Assembly (NCBI GenBank): GCA_030427805.1
Contig: JAUICP010000003.1
Location: forward strand, 257,758-321,757
Direction: 5' to 3'
DNA from: Bdellovibrionia bacterium
GTDB taxonomy: Bacteria > Bdellovibrionota > Bdellovibrionia > Bdellovibrionales > JAGQZY01
Length of the DNA stretch: 64,000 bases
Of the stretch, positions 10,163 to 17,759 are shown one piece after another. Below the pieces are notes generated by a model. That model was not told the DNA's origin and made no database searches. It saw nothing but the letters and a program-made list of their open reading frames with translations. Position 1 is the first letter of the stretch. Each line of letters starts with the position of its first letter. The position numbers and the translations under genes were made by a program.

Positions 10163-10714
10163 TTAAAATGGCAGACTGATGCCCGTTAAGAGATCCAATT
10201 GCGTCGCTTCGCCGTTCTGAGCTCCCGAAAGAAAGAGAAGTCGCACCTCAGCTTTCAAGTTGAGGTTTTGATTAAAAATTCTCTCCACTCCCGCACCAAA
10301 ACTATATCCGGCATAATTGGCATCTACCGATTGAAATTGCCTTTGGTTAAATGAAGCCGAAATAAATGGACGCCATATTTCTTGAAAGTAAAGCTTGGCT
10401 TCTTCAGAACTGGATCGATATTCAGAAGAGCTCGATATAGGAAAGTAAAAAAGACCCAGGTCAAATCCAAATGCCATATCTCCACCTATGATGCTCGACA
10501 TGGCCACCGAATAACCCAAGCCAAATTCAATTTGCCGGTGAACCGGCGTTAAATAATTGACCCGGTAAGAACCGAAGTTAGAAAACTCTCCCTCGGATTG
10601 ATCGGTCTTTGCCGACAGCGAAAAGAATCCTCCGAGAATATCAAACTTACTCGCAGAAGCATGATTGGTTGCTAAAAATGTCAGGCTAAAAAGCCAAATA
10701 CTAAGCTGCTTTTT
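10163..10714 (-). CDS. Outer-membrane beta-barrel-like protein of the motor-like cluster
   Basis: Signal peptide (MKKQLSIWLFSLTFLATNHASA), alternating amphipathic strands, C-terminal aromatic (LLTGISLPF). Confidence 0.65.
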   Translation of the reverse strand, partial: KKQLSIWLFSLTFLATNHASASKFDILGGFFSLSAKTDQSEGEFSNFGSYRVNYLTPVHRQIEFGLGYSVAMSSIIGGDMAFGFDLGLFYFPISSSSEYRSSSEEAKLYFQEIWRPFISASFNQRQFQSVDANYAGYSFGAGVERIFNQNLNLKAEVRLLFLSGAQNGEATQLDLLTGISLPF

Positions 10715-12383
10715 CATTACCTGACTCACTGGCGAGTTCTTCTCTTCTCACCATTTCAAAATACACTTCAGCAATTCGCTCTCGAATCACCCCAATTGTT
10801 GCCTCACTCGGTCGACTCTCATCGAGTTGCTTCATTTTTTCTAAAAATAAAAATCGTTGTTTTTCAGAAAAGAGACTCTCTATGGCCTGGCGCTCGTCCT
10901 TAGGAATATTAAAAAGTGCAAGGGCCCAATCATCGACCGTAAATGACACAAATACCAAATATAGATTCATGGCATCGGCATCGAGAACACGAAAAAACGG
11001 TGGCCGCAAATATTCTAAAAAAGCCCCCTTCGCCGCCGTATAGATTTCTCGTTCTTCAGCGACACTGGCTTTTTTCAAGAATCGAAGTAAATCGCGATCG
11101 CGAATATAGTCTTTCAGTTCTTTCATGGAATTCTTTGGTTTGAGCTTAAGACCTCTTTCCATGGCCTCATCAAGCTCTTTATCCGTCAATTGTTTATAGG
11201 TTTTGTTCGGATCGAGAAGGGCTCCCCATGCGCCAGGAAAAGCAGCGCGACCGATCGGGACAGAAAGAGATTTCGGCATTTCTGACAGTATCGAAAATGC
11301 CACGTCTTGGTCCAAATCTCTTAAGAGTTGAGAACTTTGATCACCGAGACGCCAAACTTGAATCACCAAGTCCTGTAACTTTCGATTGTTTGTCTCAGGA
11401 CGATGGCGTAATAAACTTTCAATAAGATCCAGGGTTTGATAATCGACGCTTCCAGGGTCCGCGTAGGCACTAAACCACTCTTGACCACTCGATAGTGAAA
11501 AAATTCGACGTTGATCGCCTAAAGGAAGCTCATTTAGAAAGGCTCCCAAAAGTTTCGGATTCTCTGTCGCCAGCTCTTCAAGAGTTAGCATGTCTCCGAT
11601 ATTTGGAAACGAATCTGAAACGACCAAGTCATTTAATCGCTGCCTAAAAATTTCACGGGTCTTATGATTATCGCTCAATCGGATATCACCCATCCCCGCA
11701 CCGGAATGAGTGGGTGTATTAGGCGTCTGAGTTTGTGGCATACTCATCGGCGCTACTGGTGCCGAAGGGGCCTTGTCCGATTGACTCTTCACCTGATCTT
11801 GTATGATCGATAGGGCTTTGACGAGCTTGCCAATTGAAAGGCGTTGAATAAAGAATAGACCAAACAAGAAGGCCATGATGGTGATTCCAATGATCATTCC
11901 ATAGATTTCAAGGTCAATCTGGCTACCCCAGCGGCGTCTCGAAAGCTGGATACGATCCCTACCCGGTATGAGGCGAAGATCTTGAATCAAGGCCTCCCTA
12001 ATTTCTGCCGACTCCCCTTCGGATACTGACTCGGGAATAATTACATTGACTGTCGCACTACGAATTCGATTCGTTAAACTGTAGAGTGAAGCCGTTGGAT
12101 CATCCCATTCATCCTTTATGTTCTCGTACTCGAGGTCAAAGAAGGGAAGAGTTTCATTTTTGGGGCGATACTCTTCGTTACCGGTAGTTCTTCTTAAGGG
12201 ATCAATGCGCACAGTAATCAAAAAAGGCATATCCTTAAATCGATTTGAGAGAATTCGATTCGCCTTTTCTTTGTAGTAATCTTCTAACTCTAAAACCCGA
12301 GGGTGGCGTGAAGACTCTTGGGCCATCAATGTCACCGAAAAAAGAATACCGATAAAATAGATAAGTACTCTCATATTTTTCAT
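10701..12383 (-). CDS. Single-pass membrane protein: FliF C-terminal-like periplasmic region plus FliG-like cytoplasmic region
   Basis: Signal peptide; IRSATVNVIIPESVSEGESAEIREALIQDLRLIPGRDRIQL resembles the FliF collar region; TM segment IYGMIIGITIMAFLFGLFFI; C-terminal DDWALALFNIPKDERQAIESLFSEKQRFLFLEKMKQLDESRPSEATIGVIRERIAE resembles the FliG torque-helix domain; next to MotB. Confidence 0.6.
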   Translation of the reverse strand: MKNMRVLIYFIGILFSVTLMAQESSRHPRVLELEDYYKEKANRILSNRFKDMPFLITVRIDPLRRTTGNEEYRPKNETLPFFDLEYENIKDEWDDPTASLYSLTNRIRSATVNVIIPESVSEGESAEIREALIQDLRLIPGRDRIQLSRRRWGSQIDLEIYGMIIGITIMAFLFGLFFIQRLSIGKLVKALSIIQDQVKSQSDKAPSAPVAPMSMPQTQTPNTPTHSGAGMGDIRLSDNHKTREIFRQRLNDLVVSDSFPNIGDMLTLEELATENPKLLGAFLNELPLGDQRRIFSLSSGQEWFSAYADPGSVDYQTLDLIESLLRHRPETNNRKLQDLVIQVWRLGDQSSQLLRDLDQDVAFSILSEMPKSLSVPIGRAAFPGAWGALLDPNKTYKQLTDKELDEAMERGLKLKPKNSMKELKDYIRDRDLLRFLKKASVAEEREIYTAAKGAFLEYLRPPFFRVLDADAMNLYLVFVSFTVDDWALALFNIPKDERQAIESLFSEKQRFLFLEKMKQLDESRPSEATIGVIRERIAEVYFEMVRREELASESGNEKAA

Positions 12384-13099
12384 TTACTACCACCTAGCTC
12401 TGGTTCAATAATTAGGAGGACCTTTCTCGCCAAATCTCGAAGATCCAGGTCACGATATTTTTCAGGTAATTGCTCGACATACTCTGGTTGCAGGTTCAGG
12501 ACACCGTATCCAGCTAAACCCATTCGATTCAGAGGCACTCCAGCTTTTTGTAGAATTCTCATGGTCGCAACCGCTCTCAATGCCGAAAGTTCTAAGTTGT
12601 CTTTAAAAGCCCTTCCAGGCTTTTGAATCACTTTTCGATTGTCAGTATAGGCCTTCACTCCCAATCGGTATTTTCCAGCATAAGGCATGTATTTGTTAAC
12701 AAACTCGCGCAAGACTTTCTTTCCTTGATTCGTAGGCTTCGTATCTCCGACGCCAAAAAAGACAATGCCAGGGAAATCAACAACAATACGGTCACCAATT
12801 TTGCTAACTTCAGCGCCCCAGTTCTCAACAATTTCTTCGCTCACATCGGACTTGCCTTGTTCTTCACCCACTGACAGGCTTGCGTCGTCGCCGCCGGTGT
12901 TATGGGAACCCAGATCTTCAATATTACTAATTAAACTCTGGGCGAGCTTTTCTGCATTAATTTCTTGTTGATCAATCGAAAAGAAAAGAACGAAAAATGC
13001 CAATAGTAGTGTGACCATATCACCATAACTAATAGCCCAACTCCCTTCGGAGTCGACAGACATTTCGTGTAATTTCTTCTTTCGATTTCTCAAGGACAT
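12380..13099 (-). CDS. motB: MotB-like stator protein (TM plus OmpA-like domain)
   Basis: WAISYGDMVTLLLAFFVLFFS contains the conserved MotB TM Asp; OmpA-like LSALRAVATMRILQKAGVPLNRMGLAGYG. Confidence 0.88.
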   Translation of the reverse strand: MSLRNRKKKLHEMSVDSEGSWAISYGDMVTLLLAFFVLFFSIDQQEINAEKLAQSLISNIEDLGSHNTGGDDASLSVGEEQGKSDVSEEIVENWGAEVSKIGDRIVVDFPGIVFFGVGDTKPTNQGKKVLREFVNKYMPYAGKYRLGVKAYTDNRKVIQKPGRAFKDNLELSALRAVATMRILQKAGVPLNRMGLAGYGVLNLQPEYVEQLPEKYRDLDLRDLARKVLLIIEPELGGSK

Positions 13100-13905
13100 T
13101 AAGCAGCCTCGCTTTCGGCCATGGACTCTTGCATCCTCTGATGAATGATATCAACTCGGTCTCCAGGAGGCACATGAGAATTCAGTAATTCTTGCGCTTC
13201 GAGAAGTGACTTTTGTTCAATCGCCAAGATGACCGCTTCAAGGGCAATTTCAGCTTCAGCTTCATCTTCTTCGCCAAACTTTTGCACACTCTCACCCGCA
13301 GGATTGACAATCATATTGGATACAATCAAACCGTAGAATGTCGCTAAAAGTGCAATCGCCATTCGAAAACCAGTTTCCGCCGGGTCCATCCCCTCAGAAA
13401 TACCACGCATCAAGTGAATGAGACCAAGAACCGTACCGGCAAGACCAAATGCAGGAGGATACTTAGCCAGCGAGCGAATACTATTAGCGAGTTTGTGGGT
13501 TCTCACTGACGAACGGTAAATTCGCTCTTCTAAAATCGCGCGAATTTTATCCGGCGTAAAACCGAGGGAACCCAGCTCAAAGCCATCGCGAATGACTTCA
13601 TCCTTAAGATCTTTAACTTTGATTTCAGGTGCGCTTCGCGTCTGAGCATAGTTTTGGATGTGCCCGAAGTACTGGGACAATAGAAGCTTTCGATTCGTTG
13701 ATTTCTTAAAAAACAAATGTCCCAGTCGTCTTCTCAATTCTGAAGAGTTCTTCCAGGGAAATGTAATAATGGCCACTGCAAAGGTACCACCGAGTACCAC
13801 CGCAATTGCGACAAAGTCGTAGTAACTACTAAACCCCGTTTGCAGATGAATAATCGCAGCAATGATCGAAGCTGTTGAAATAAATAGTCCGATTAAAAAG
13901 TTCAT
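13099..13905 (-). CDS. motA: MotA-like stator protein
   Basis: FVAIAVVLGGTFAV, PPAFGLAGTVLGLI and ALLATFYGLIVSN motifs of the MotA family. Confidence 0.9.
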   Translation of the reverse strand: MNFLIGLFISTASIIAAIIHLQTGFSSYYDFVAIAVVLGGTFAVAIITFPWKNSSELRRRLGHLFFKKSTNRKLLLSQYFGHIQNYAQTRSAPEIKVKDLKDEVIRDGFELGSLGFTPDKIRAILEERIYRSSVRTHKLANSIRSLAKYPPAFGLAGTVLGLIHLMRGISEGMDPAETGFRMAIALLATFYGLIVSNMIVNPAGESVQKFGEEDEAEAEIALEAVILAIEQKSLLEAQELLNSHVPPGDRVDIIHQRMQESMAESEAA

Positions 13906-14540
13906 TCTTGCCCTCCACCTGCGGGAAGACGATCTACACCCAACGAACGCAACTTATTGACCATGGTTTCTGTTCTAGGGTTGTCGGGGTTCAGGCTAAA
14001 AGCTTTTATATAGTTGTCATAGGCTCTCTTGAGATCTTTTTGCAAGTAGTAAACGTTTCCAAGCAATCCGTAAACCACTGAGACATTAGGAAACTCTACG
14101 ACCAATCTCATGAGTCGACTTTCTGCCATCGGGAAGTTTCTTGAAGCAATAAAAGACTGACTCTCAGCAATCCCTTCCGCCAGGGCATTGAGACTCGAGT
14201 TAATGTCTTTACACTTTTGCGGAACCGAAACCTCTGACAACTTTGCTGAGTATGAAAATTCGGAAGGCAAAAAAGGTGTTGGTAGTAAAACGGATTTTGC
14301 ATGATATCCGTCTTTTTCGACTTCTAAACGAATGTTATCAGTCGAGGCTGAGCTAAGAACTTTTGAATCGATCTTAAGAGGTGTCTTTCCGAGGGCCGTT
14401 CGCGCTCCCCCATCTTCTGTTAAATAGACATCAGCTTCGTTTGGCGAGCTCGTAACAACAAGCTGACCCGATTGACAAGCCGTGGTTAGCAGAAGTGGCA
14501 ATACCACGAAAAACAAATACAATTGCGTTCTTATACTCAT
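13902..14540 (-). CDS. Lipoprotein with PEGA-like domain and TPR
   Basis: Lipobox LLTTACQSGQ; LVVTSSPNEADVYLTEDGGARTALGKTPLKI (PEGA-like); YGLLGNVYYLQKDLKRAYDNYIKAFSLNPDNP (TPR). Confidence 0.8.
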   Translation of the reverse strand: MSIRTQLYLFFVVLPLLLTTACQSGQLVVTSSPNEADVYLTEDGGARTALGKTPLKIDSKVLSSASTDNIRLEVEKDGYHAKSVLLPTPFLPSEFSYSAKLSEVSVPQKCKDINSSLNALAEGIAESQSFIASRNFPMAESRLMRLVVEFPNVSVVYGLLGNVYYLQKDLKRAYDNYIKAFSLNPDNPRTETMVNKLRSLGVDRLPAGGGQE

Positions 14541-14762
14541 AAAACACCTCATTCAGTTTTCGACAAATCTGTAGTGTATCTATACAAGACAATGGGACAG
14601 TTCCTTGAAATGAAAACCAAAGTCGAGGCACTAATGTTTCATAAGTAGAAAATATCGCGACTTTTGGCGGCAATTTGTGAAGATTCCATGGCAATACCGG
14701 CTACTTACTTCAATTAGGGGACCTCTTACCGATAAGACTATGTGAACGTTTGTGGGAAAATT

Positions 14763-17759
14763 ATGAAAAGACTGTCATTACTATTTATTCTGCTGTTATT
14801 TGTTTTTACAGGACCCGCCTGTAAAAAGTCGAATGATTTTGCCTTTACCGATGAAGGTAATAACACTCCCATCGAAAATGATGTCGACAACCTCACAATC
14901 ACTGAAACAATCCCCAACGCCAAAGACGTTGTTATTGAAATTGGAAATAGCCAAACCTTCTTTGCTTCAGCCAAGGCTCCTTTTGGCCGCTCCATCACCT
15001 ACACATGGGTTCTCGATGGTGTCCAACAACGCAAAGGGGAACAGCAATCTTTTATCATTGATTCTGCCGGATCCAGTCCTGGTGATAAATCACTTGAACT
15101 CATCGTTGAAGATGGTGTTGAGACCGAACGCTTTGACTGGGATGTTAAGGTCAATGGTGCACCTGTACTATCGACTTCGATTTCAGGAACACAAAAGGTT
15201 TCCGTGGATTCTACGATTAACTTTTCGGTTTCTGCTACGGATCCCAATGATGATGATGTCGTCACCTACACATGGCTTCTTAACGGCCTTCCTTCTGTGA
15301 ATCTCGTAGGAACCGACAACACGGCTGTATTGACCGGTGCCGTTTCGGATGTGGGCGCAATTAATGTACAGGTCGTCGCAAGTGACGGAACCGCTTCAGA
15401 TACTCTCACCTTTGCAACTGAAGTAAATCACTTTCCAGACGCCTGCAATAACCTGAGCCAGGATGAAATCTGTACCTATGCCGGAAACCCTAATATCGGT
15501 GATGGCATTAACCCCGACAATTCACTCTACGACGAACGCATTCGCCCCATTTCTAGTTGCCAAGATGACGTCGGAAATATTTTTATGACTGACTACCAAA
15601 ACGATGTAGTTTGGTACTACAACCGCAGTTCGACGACCACCTACAGTCGACTCGGCGTGAGCATTCCACCTCGAACCTTAAAAATCGTTGCGGGAACGGG
15701 CGAGGCAGCGTCCGGAGGAGATGGAGTCGCACTCCAGTCAGCACTTAACGATCCAAGGGGGTGTGCTTACCACGCTCCTTCAAAACGACTTTTTGTTTCT
15801 GAGTGGTCTGGTAGCCGAGTTAAGTATATTGATAATAATGGGCTTGTCTTTGGTGGAATGGGGTACGGTTCGAGCACGACCAATGGTGACGTCGCCTATA
15901 ATCACGACTGTGATAATCCTGCCGGAATGCACATTTACCTCAGTGATCTCTACATCGCATGCCGTTCTGACAATATGGTGCGCAGGTGGGACCTCAACAC
16001 GGATCAGGCCTATGTCGTTTATGGTGATGGCGGTGGTAATATCGATGGCGAAAGCGGTGACCCGACTCTAGCAGGAGCGCGTCGGCCCTACGATGTTTTC
16101 GCCGATGCCGATGGTCTCTATGTCGCCCATGATGAAAATCACCAGATTCGATTCATCAACCAATCCGGCGGTAACGTTACTTTTTGGGCAGCATCGACTC
16201 CTATCGTCGTTGCGGATAATACGGTTCGAAGAATCATCGGTGATGGTAATGGTGGAAATGAAGATGATGAGATTCCGCAAACAATGCGAGTGAGTAATAT
16301 TACTGGCGTCACCAAGACGGGCGATCTCATTCTTTATACTTCCAGGGGCAATGACCGTTTTTATGTGGCCAATAATACTGGTGCGCCCGTTGTTATCGAC
16401 GGTCTCACTGTCGACCCCGGAGAGGCCCGAAGAATTTCTCCGAACCGGGGCTATAACGGAACTAACATTGATCTAGCGATCGCCGAAATCAATGAACCCT
16501 ACGACATCCACGTTGACAACCAAAACGCCAATAAAATAATTTTTTCAGACTATAATAACTACCGCTTGCGCGAGATCGATCTTTCAACCGATAAAATGAA
16601 CGATATTATCGGCTCTGGTAAAGGAAGAAATGGTTACCTCGGAGATATCTCTAAACCAACTCTTCAACATCTCTTCAACTACCCTGGTGGCGTGGTTTTT
16701 GACAATGACAATCGTTACCTTTACTTTATCGATAAATCAAATAATAGAACTCGGGCTGTAGATCCCTATGGCAATATTCAAACCGTCATTGGTCGTGGCC
16801 AAGGTGATCCCGATGTGCAAAATGATGTTCCTTCAAATGCTTATATGTACACGACCCACAATTCGAACGACAATATGATCAATGGTATTGATCTTATGCC
16901 CGACGGCTCTGTAATTCAGCTCAATACTCGAAGAGACAGCTTCCGAATTTGGAATACCAGTACCACTGGAAAAATCTACTTCAACACATTTATTCAAGGC
17001 GATCGCATCTCGAACGTCGCCGGAGATTATACGGCTTCGGGTAACGGCGGTGATGGTCCAGCCCTTAGTATTAATATGGATAACCCAACGGATGTTGAAC
17101 ACTATAACGACGGAACGGAAGATTTTATTTTTGTGGTCGACCAAACCAATCACTGCGTGAGGATGCTACAAGAGGATGGTGATCTTGTTCGAGTTCTCGG
17201 AACCTGCGGCTCCAGTGGAAATTCCGGTCCGGATGTGGCCGAGGGTGCTGTTCTTTTTGATCGCCCCAATGGAATTGCCGTGGATAGTCTAGGTAATCTG
17301 TATATTACAGACTCCTATAATTCCAAAATTCGCTATTGGAACCGAACCGCTGCGACGGTATCCGTAGGGATTGTTAATGTCGGACCAGGTCGCGTCGCTA
17401 CAATAGCCTGCAATAACGGAACTTCAGGAAGCGCCTCAGAAGAAGTTTTTGCCACAAGTGCCCGCTGTAATAGACCCATGGGTATTGATGTTACAGACAC
17501 TCAGATCTGTTTTGCCAATACCTGGCGCCACAACGTGCGTTGTATTGACAAAACCACCGGAAAAATTCGCACCGTCGCTGGACAACTCGAGGCCACTCCT
17601 CGGGCCGGATCCCCTATTGGCTTTGAACAAGAAGGTATCAGTGGTACTTCTGCCACTCTCTACTACCCAAATGATGTTTATTTTGATGCCAACGGAGATC
17701 TCTTTATCTCTGACCAATACAATCACATCGTTCGCAAACTGAAGCTTTCTAGCGATTAA
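14763..17759 (+). CDS. Large lipoprotein with PKD/Ig-like and NHL-repeat regions
   Basis: MKRLSLLFILLLFVFTGPACKKS lipobox; FSVSATDPNDDDVVTYTWLLNG (PKD/cadherin-like); repeated NHL-like RPNGIAVDSLGNLYITDSYNSKIRYW. Confidence 0.8.
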   Translation: MKRLSLLFILLLFVFTGPACKKSNDFAFTDEGNNTPIENDVDNLTITETIPNAKDVVIEIGNSQTFFASAKAPFGRSITYTWVLDGVQQRKGEQQSFIIDSAGSSPGDKSLELIVEDGVETERFDWDVKVNGAPVLSTSISGTQKVSVDSTINFSVSATDPNDDDVVTYTWLLNGLPSVNLVGTDNTAVLTGAVSDVGAINVQVVASDGTASDTLTFATEVNHFPDACNNLSQDEICTYAGNPNIGDGINPDNSLYDERIRPISSCQDDVGNIFMTDYQNDVVWYYNRSSTTTYSRLGVSIPPRTLKIVAGTGEAASGGDGVALQSALNDPRGCAYHAPSKRLFVSEWSGSRVKYIDNNGLVFGGMGYGSSTTNGDVAYNHDCDNPAGMHIYLSDLYIACRSDNMVRRWDLNTDQAYVVYGDGGGNIDGESGDPTLAGARRPYDVFADADGLYVAHDENHQIRFINQSGGNVTFWAASTPIVVADNTVRRIIGDGNGGNEDDEIPQTMRVSNITGVTKTGDLILYTSRGNDRFYVANNTGAPVVIDGLTVDPGEARRISPNRGYNGTNIDLAIAEINEPYDIHVDNQNANKIIFSDYNNYRLREIDLSTDKMNDIIGSGKGRNGYLGDISKPTLQHLFNYPGGVVFDNDNRYLYFIDKSNNRTRAVDPYGNIQTVIGRGQGDPDVQNDVPSNAYMYTTHNSNDNMINGIDLMPDGSVIQLNTRRDSFRIWNTSTTGKIYFNTFIQGDRISNVAGDYTASGNGGDGPALSINMDNPTDVEHYNDGTEDFIFVVDQTNHCVRMLQEDGDLVRVLGTCGSSGNSGPDVAEGAVLFDRPNGIAVDSLGNLYITDSYNSKIRYWNRTAATVSVGIVNVGPGRVATIACNNGTSGSASEEVFATSARCNRPMGIDVTDTQICFANTWRHNVRCIDKTTGKIRTVAGQLEATPRAGSPIGFEQEGISGTSATLYYPNDVYFDANGDLFISDQYNHIVRKLKLSSD

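Follow-up and report, generated by a model that had tools for sequence, protein, structure and literature searches.

The open reading frame at 10701–12383 of the window (the whole 64,000-nucleotide stretch of DNA that was analysed) encodes a natural single-pass protein in which a FliF-collar-like domain is fused to a FliG-like half, and it lies in an operon carrying its own MotA and MotB genes. The protein probably forms the rotor subunit of a rotary motor in its own right, which is driven by MotAB and stands apart from the flagellum. The open reading frame is a real gene, as revealed by its recurrence in relatives and across the phylum; relatives with 22–95% identity were present in 17 of 60 related genomes, and 16 of these loci had identical neighbours in identical order as far as the contigs extend. 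A first-pass annotation of this DNA had proposed the single-pass fusion, which profile comparisons and model matches bore out, while the dedicated MotAB operon around it had gone unnoticed. The gene and its parts were located as follows.

10701..12383, minus strand: FliF-collar/FliG-like rotor candidate, 560 aa, ATG start
12318–12383, minus strand: signal peptide, residues ~1–22 (sequence and model)
11934–12302, minus strand: RBM3-like domain, residues ~28–150 (profiles and model)
11844–11912, minus strand: transmembrane (TM) helix, residues ~158–180 (sequence and model)
11676–11777, minus strand: residues ~203–236 of the linker (about residues 201–236), low complexity and disordered
10707–11669, minus strand: FliG-like helical part, residues ~239–559 (profiles and model)

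The AF2 model of the rotor protein, a monomer built from 15 homologues, had a mean pLDDT of 79, with about 90 in the cytoplasmic part and <50 in linker residues 201–236. The signal peptide, the one TM helix and the linker, as first annotated, could be seen in both the sequence and the model. The elements of the periplasmic domain follow the order alpha-beta-(disordered insert)-beta-alpha-beta, and the cytoplasmic part consists of about 320 residues of helical repeats in sequence and model alike. The signal peptide occupies the place of TM1; the first TM helix of FliF is absent, and RBM1-RBM2 (YscJ_FliF, PF01514) could not be found in the rotor even at E<=10. The one PF01514 match in the window genome was the canonical FliF.

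Pfam analysis of the rotor revealed FliG_C as the sole match, at a sub-threshold E=0.07; PF08345, which covers the RBM3/collar region, had no match, and none was obtained with the NCBIfam profiles. Two aligned orthologues exceeded the Pfam FliG_C cut-off of 23.3 bits (27.9 and 25.5 bits), and a third module-type rotor protein with the same neighbours matched FliG_C at 1.6e-13. The profile-profile comparison, named beforehand as a check on the fusion, supported both halves. The periplasmic half, which had been described as FliF-like, aligned to FliF 353-426 (RBM3) at E=4.4e-4, with 0.25 for the reversed control. The window family matched FliG weakly (E=0.012-0.008; reversed control 0.2), the cytoplasmic half at 0.008 with a control of 0.18. 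The window family matched a sister family of rotors, itself represented by about 27 strong full-length matches, at E=1.6e-11 over 507 columns, and the sister family in turn matched FliG at E=1.8e-12. Since the direct signal between the window family and FliG is weak, the homology rests on structure and on the sister family. The reversed-profile controls speak against a FliG/FliF link that arises from low complexity or by chance, and this reading was rejected.

Foldseek comparison of the rotor model with the PDB, the structural check on the fusion, retrieved FliG or FliF RBM3/S-ring structures as all of the top 16 entries, and no better class was found. The model matched FliG structures 8umx_B, 3ajc, 4fhr_B and 3hjl with a probability of 0.96-1.00 (8umx_B and 3hjl being full-length FliG of Salmonella and Aquifex) and FliF S-ring/RBM3 structures 8z5v_A, 8z4g_1 and 6sd1_A with 0.94-1.00. 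Fragments covering the middle and C-terminal domains of FliG were also among the top entries. Below the top 16, the FliG of the MotAB-FliG complex (8ucs_H) aligned at 3.4 A over 82 columns with a TM-score of 0.62, and the isolated FliG C-terminal domain 1qc7 at 3.6 A with 0.64 on the target. The E-values were modest (best 3e-3) and the whole-chain TM-scores low, likely due to the flexible joining of the domains. The sister family model matched FliG at 1.5e-7 and RBM3 with a probability of 1.00. A PDB search with the single rotor sequence gave chance matches only. The FliF-FliG fusion architecture is thus established by several routes, with a weak sequence signal from the window protein itself. 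The likeness of the C-terminal part to FliG was upheld; however, it had been restricted to the torque-helix domain, and the match extends over most of FliG.

Assessment of the charged torque-helix residues (E. coli numbering), which had been expected to be conserved, gave a divided result. The equivalent of R281 was K/R in 18/18 rotors and that of D288 was E in 12/18, whereas the equivalents of K264 and D289 were lost in the window rotor family; K508 and E515 of the rotor torque helix were conserved. At the FliM-binding motif EHPQR, the EHPQ of FliG aligned with ETPA in the sister family, and the window family had no confident alignment at this position.

The rotor gene is the fourth of five translationally coupled genes, in the order PEGA/TPR lipoprotein, MotA, MotB, FliF-FliG and outer-membrane barrel, with stop/start overlaps in the window, and a giant lipoprotein gene diverges from the operon.

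13902..14552, minus strand: PEGA/TPR lipoprotein, lipobox LLTTAC, first gene of the operon; family in 22/22 loci
13099..13905, minus strand: MotA-like stator subunit of flagellar type with a large cytoplasmic loop (Pfam 4.5e-19)
12380..13099, minus strand: MotB-like stator subunit (Pfam MotB_plug 1.3e-12, OmpA 4e-5)
10163..10711, minus strand: outer-membrane beta-barrel (Pfam OMP_b-brl 2.5e-4); 21/22 loci
14742..17759, plus strand: giant lipoprotein, 1005 aa, lipobox-like N-terminus

The motB and rotor genes overlap by 4 nt, and the barrel gene begins, at an ATG (MKKQLS), before the rotor gene has ended. The giant lipoprotein consists of Ig/PKD-like domains followed by a C-terminal NHL beta-propeller. 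The six-gene set could be followed in 22 loci drawn from many families (lipoprotein 22, MotA 22, MotB 21, FliF-FliG 22, barrel 21, giant 22), in which the product of the giant gene varies in length from 998 to 2340 aa. In most of these loci the giant gene either diverges from the operon or lies at its 3' end. Among the listed immediate neighbours, up to 20 kb, of the 22 loci there were no rod, hook, type III export or filament genes, and no FliM/FliN genes were seen in the module. The canonical flagellar gene set occupies a separate locus. In one genome (G059 contig 69, L050/L051), about 11 kb separate the module from the canonical fliF-fliG cluster on the same contig.

The stator is of the flagellar type, as indicated by the grouping and the cytoplasmic loop of MotA and by the plug and OmpA domain of MotB. 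In the PDB, the window MotA matched structures of MotA and PomA with values as good as 2e-20, including 6ysf and 8ucs_C, the MotA of the MotAB-FliG complex. In a tree whose non-module flagellar-type members were only one MotB-paired MotA (L169) and one orphan (L168), the window MotA fell among the flagellar-type and module MotAs, and support of 100/100 set it apart from ExbB/TolQ. In the window MotB, the plug TM carries SYGDM, the motif of the ion-binding Asp, and the C-terminus is an OmpA-like peptidoglycan-binding one. The channel Asp motif was kept in 21/21 module MotBs and the TM3 PAFG motif in 22/22 module MotAs. Together, the kept and changed motor residues suggest a specific, re-tuned stator-rotor pair. 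One candidate for a canonical MotA, ORF L147:18613, was rejected as ExbB-like in the tree. Genome G000 contained 18 matches to the MotA/ExbB/TolQ family on contigs 1, 3, 5, 6, 7, 8, 9 and 11, including an orphan MotAB pair at C3:64815 without an adjoining rotor gene.

The window-type rotor was present in 71/372 Bdellovibrionota genomes belonging to at least ten families. Across 85,462 species genomes, a search with a moderately close alignment, which would miss more distant relatives elsewhere, returned 34 loci, all in MAGs, so that no cultured carrier of the window-type module occurs among these 34 named records. The lineage-naming titles of the 34 loci were all of Bdellovibrionota type, except for one "Proteobacteria" and one "bacterium". 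A second, strongly diverged module could be located in the window genome on contig 7 at 384000-397000 (L167), consisting of a lipoprotein, a 659-aa rotor-like protein with no Pfam match, a barrel, MotA, MotB and a TM protein with HEAT repeats; a gene for a HAMP-SpoIIE phosphatase lies close by. Sister modules occur in other families and genera, among them one genus of family f8 with closed genomes. They have a second barrel and a TM protein in addition, and several also have a HAMP-SpoIIE phosphatase. Some sister-type modules (L044, L041, L042) have no adjoining Ig/NHL giant but lipoproteins of 1350-1560 aa that, by eye, look fibronectin-like. Further stand-alone FliG_C proteins without a FliF part were found in most examined Bdellovibrionota genomes (for example, G000:C6:1140679, L048, and G000:C8:405155, L049); these have about 240-270 aa or, in fewer genomes, about 140-166 aa.

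Karunker et al. described TTAAG-N16-CCGATA in 66% of B. bacteriovorus attack-phase promoters (PMC3627812). A widened form of this published consensus (TTAAG/TAAAG-N15-17-CCGATA, threshold 9/11) was scanned against the module loci and, for control, against 80 further genes whose upstream regions are intergenic, and two boxes were noted in the window, the weaker of them below the threshold.

14709..14734, plus strand: FliA (sigma28)/attack-phase-like promoter of the giant gene, 9/11 match
14558..14584, minus strand: weak FliA-like box upstream of the operon, 8/11 match

Where a giant gene had an upstream region to itself, the motif was present in 10 of 11 cases, compared to 9 of 80 controls (p=1e-7), and operon starts carried it in 11 of 22 (p=2e-4), these p-values being drawn from related loci that are not fully independent. 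None of the 12 giant genes within the operon or close behind another gene had a match. A generic sigma28 consensus scan, run first, gave only p~0.01. These promoters suggest that the module may be expressed during the motile attack phase under the control of FliA.

The directly computed features, namely domain composition, fold, operon, conservation, stator type and FliA-like promoters, permit a working model of the machine, which would be produced in such attack-phase cells. The RBM3/collar domain would assemble the rotor protein into an inner-membrane ring, and the FliG-like half would form a cytoplasmic ring that is pushed by dedicated MotA pentamers around a peptidoglycan-anchored MotB dimer. 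The periplasmic collar could then hand torque to the PEGA/TPR lipoprotein and the outer-membrane barrel, which would pass it on to the giant Ig/NHL lipoprotein, presumably located at the cell surface. The most likely role predicted for such a machine is surface movement (gliding), adhesion or prey handling. It is a possible, still tentative, reading that the module represents a new class of trans-envelope rotary machine, in which a flagellar-type stator and rotor work without a filament, a rod or an export apparatus. Such a machine would turn or drag a lipoprotein on the surface, and it would be the gliding or prey-handling motor that is missing from the picture of many Bdellovibrionota. The absence of an axle or rod protein from the module, by which torque would cross the periplasm, counts against a rotary motor, as does the loss of the K264 and D289 equivalents in the window family.

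The module shares with the flagellar MS-ring/C-ring and MotAB the RBM3/collar fold, the TM helix, the FliG fold, a flagellar-type MotA and a plug-type MotB. It differs from flagellar FliF and FliG in that its rotor is one polypeptide without RBM1-2 and without the first TM helix, and from the flagellum in having no rod, hook, export or FliM/FliN genes among those seen in the module but its own lipoproteins and outer-membrane barrel. To our knowledge, flagellar stators turn FliG only inside the flagellum. In the Myxococcus Agl-Glt system (AglRQS), a MotAB/TolQR-class motor is likewise joined to an envelope-spanning apparatus, for which we know of no FliF- or FliG-like rotor. The Agl motor belongs to the generic (TolQR-like) class (PMC12505986), whereas the module MotA is of the flagellar type. 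The GldLM/T9SS gliding motor resembles the proposed machine as an ion-driven 5:2 motor that moves surface adhesins; however, it has no known FliG-like rotor and is described as non-homologous to MotAB (PMC13104615).

A natural FliF-FliG fusion, with a FliF part and a FliG part in one protein, is known from Chlamydia (PMC4768692), so the fusion by itself has a precedent. The Chlamydia protein lacks an RBM3-like domain and keeps part of RBM1-2 and FliG_M (PMC4768692), whereas the module rotor combines RBM3 with FliG_C, has no RBM1-2 and is accompanied by a dedicated MotAB operon, which Chlamydia does not have. Engineered FliF-FliG fusions of Salmonella and Vibrio form rings (PMC6079021, PMC11481574), and a Salmonella fusion still permits rotation (PMC4768692). 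These are artificial, contain (nearly) full-length FliF and act inside the flagellum, whereas the module rotor is natural and has a partial FliF. Searches of the open literature, with subscription literature and preprints outside the scope, returned no earlier description of the module or of a non-flagellar FliG-like rotor, and the six-gene module with its own stator looks undescribed. The Bdellovibrio gliding machinery is called unidentified and a major open challenge in a 2026 review (PMC13104615). If the proposed reading is true, the flagellar motor core would be able to work as a separate module, and Bdellovibrio-like predators would have a candidate gliding motor. The rotor, with no RBM1-2 and with no FliM/FliN genes in its module, would also be a natural minimal one for probing torque requirements.

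The main rival to a separate motor is that the module serves as an accessory of the polar flagellum, in which MotAB and a FliF-FliG ring around or beneath the motor, or on the sheath, add or modulate torque; this was considered unlikely. Canonical FliF was present in 332/372 Bdellovibrionota genomes, with 71/71 carriers compared to 261/301 non-carriers (Fisher p=1.8e-4), which favours the accessory, as do the FliA-like promoters and the one genome with the module near fliF/fliG. However, the association is only suggestive because the carriers are mutually related and the flagella-less genomes of the phylum are mostly small, so that genome reduction also accounts for the co-occurrence, and 261 flagellated genomes lack the module. 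B. bacteriovorus has several motAB pairs, and the FliL protein Bd1076 binds MotB3 (PMC11323537), in keeping with an accessory, whereas FliA drives many non-flagellar Bdellovibrio attack-phase genes (PMC3627812) and the module's own barrel and giant lipoprotein are unlike flagellar stator genes.

Less probable still is a proton-driven transducer similar to TonB/Tol, in which MotAB force exerted via FliF-FliG opens or moves the barrel for transport or secretion without continuous rotation of a ring. The outer-membrane barrel and lipoproteins of the operon would suit such a device, and RBM folds are also found in secretion complexes (PMC4768692); however, the MotA falls on the flagellar side of the tree, away from ExbB/TolQ, its large cytoplasmic loop is of the kind used for FliG contact, and TonB/Tol systems have no use for a FliG-like half in the cytoplasm. 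The loss of the K264 and D289 equivalents and the strong divergence of the rotor from FliG would fit a degenerate or exapted remnant, a scaffold resembling FliF-FliG that holds MotAB or the giant lipoprotein in place and produces no torque. This was regarded as the most improbable of the three, as the conserved ion-channel residues of MotA and MotB and the retention of the entire module in many families both argue for an energised function.

Besides the motor features, an Ala-Ala C-terminus was observed in 19/22 rotors and 15/23 MotAs, compared to 2/223 other proteins of the same loci; in the window, these ends lie at 10701-10709 (rotor) and 13099-13107 (MotA). The possibility that the rotor tail is a by-product of the overlap with the barrel gene was rejected, since the tail persists where the overlap varies or is absent. 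The flagellar-type MotA of the same genome also ends in Ala-Ala, whereas the canonical FliG and FliF do not. The tail of the rotor and MotA resembles a ClpXP-type C-terminal degron.
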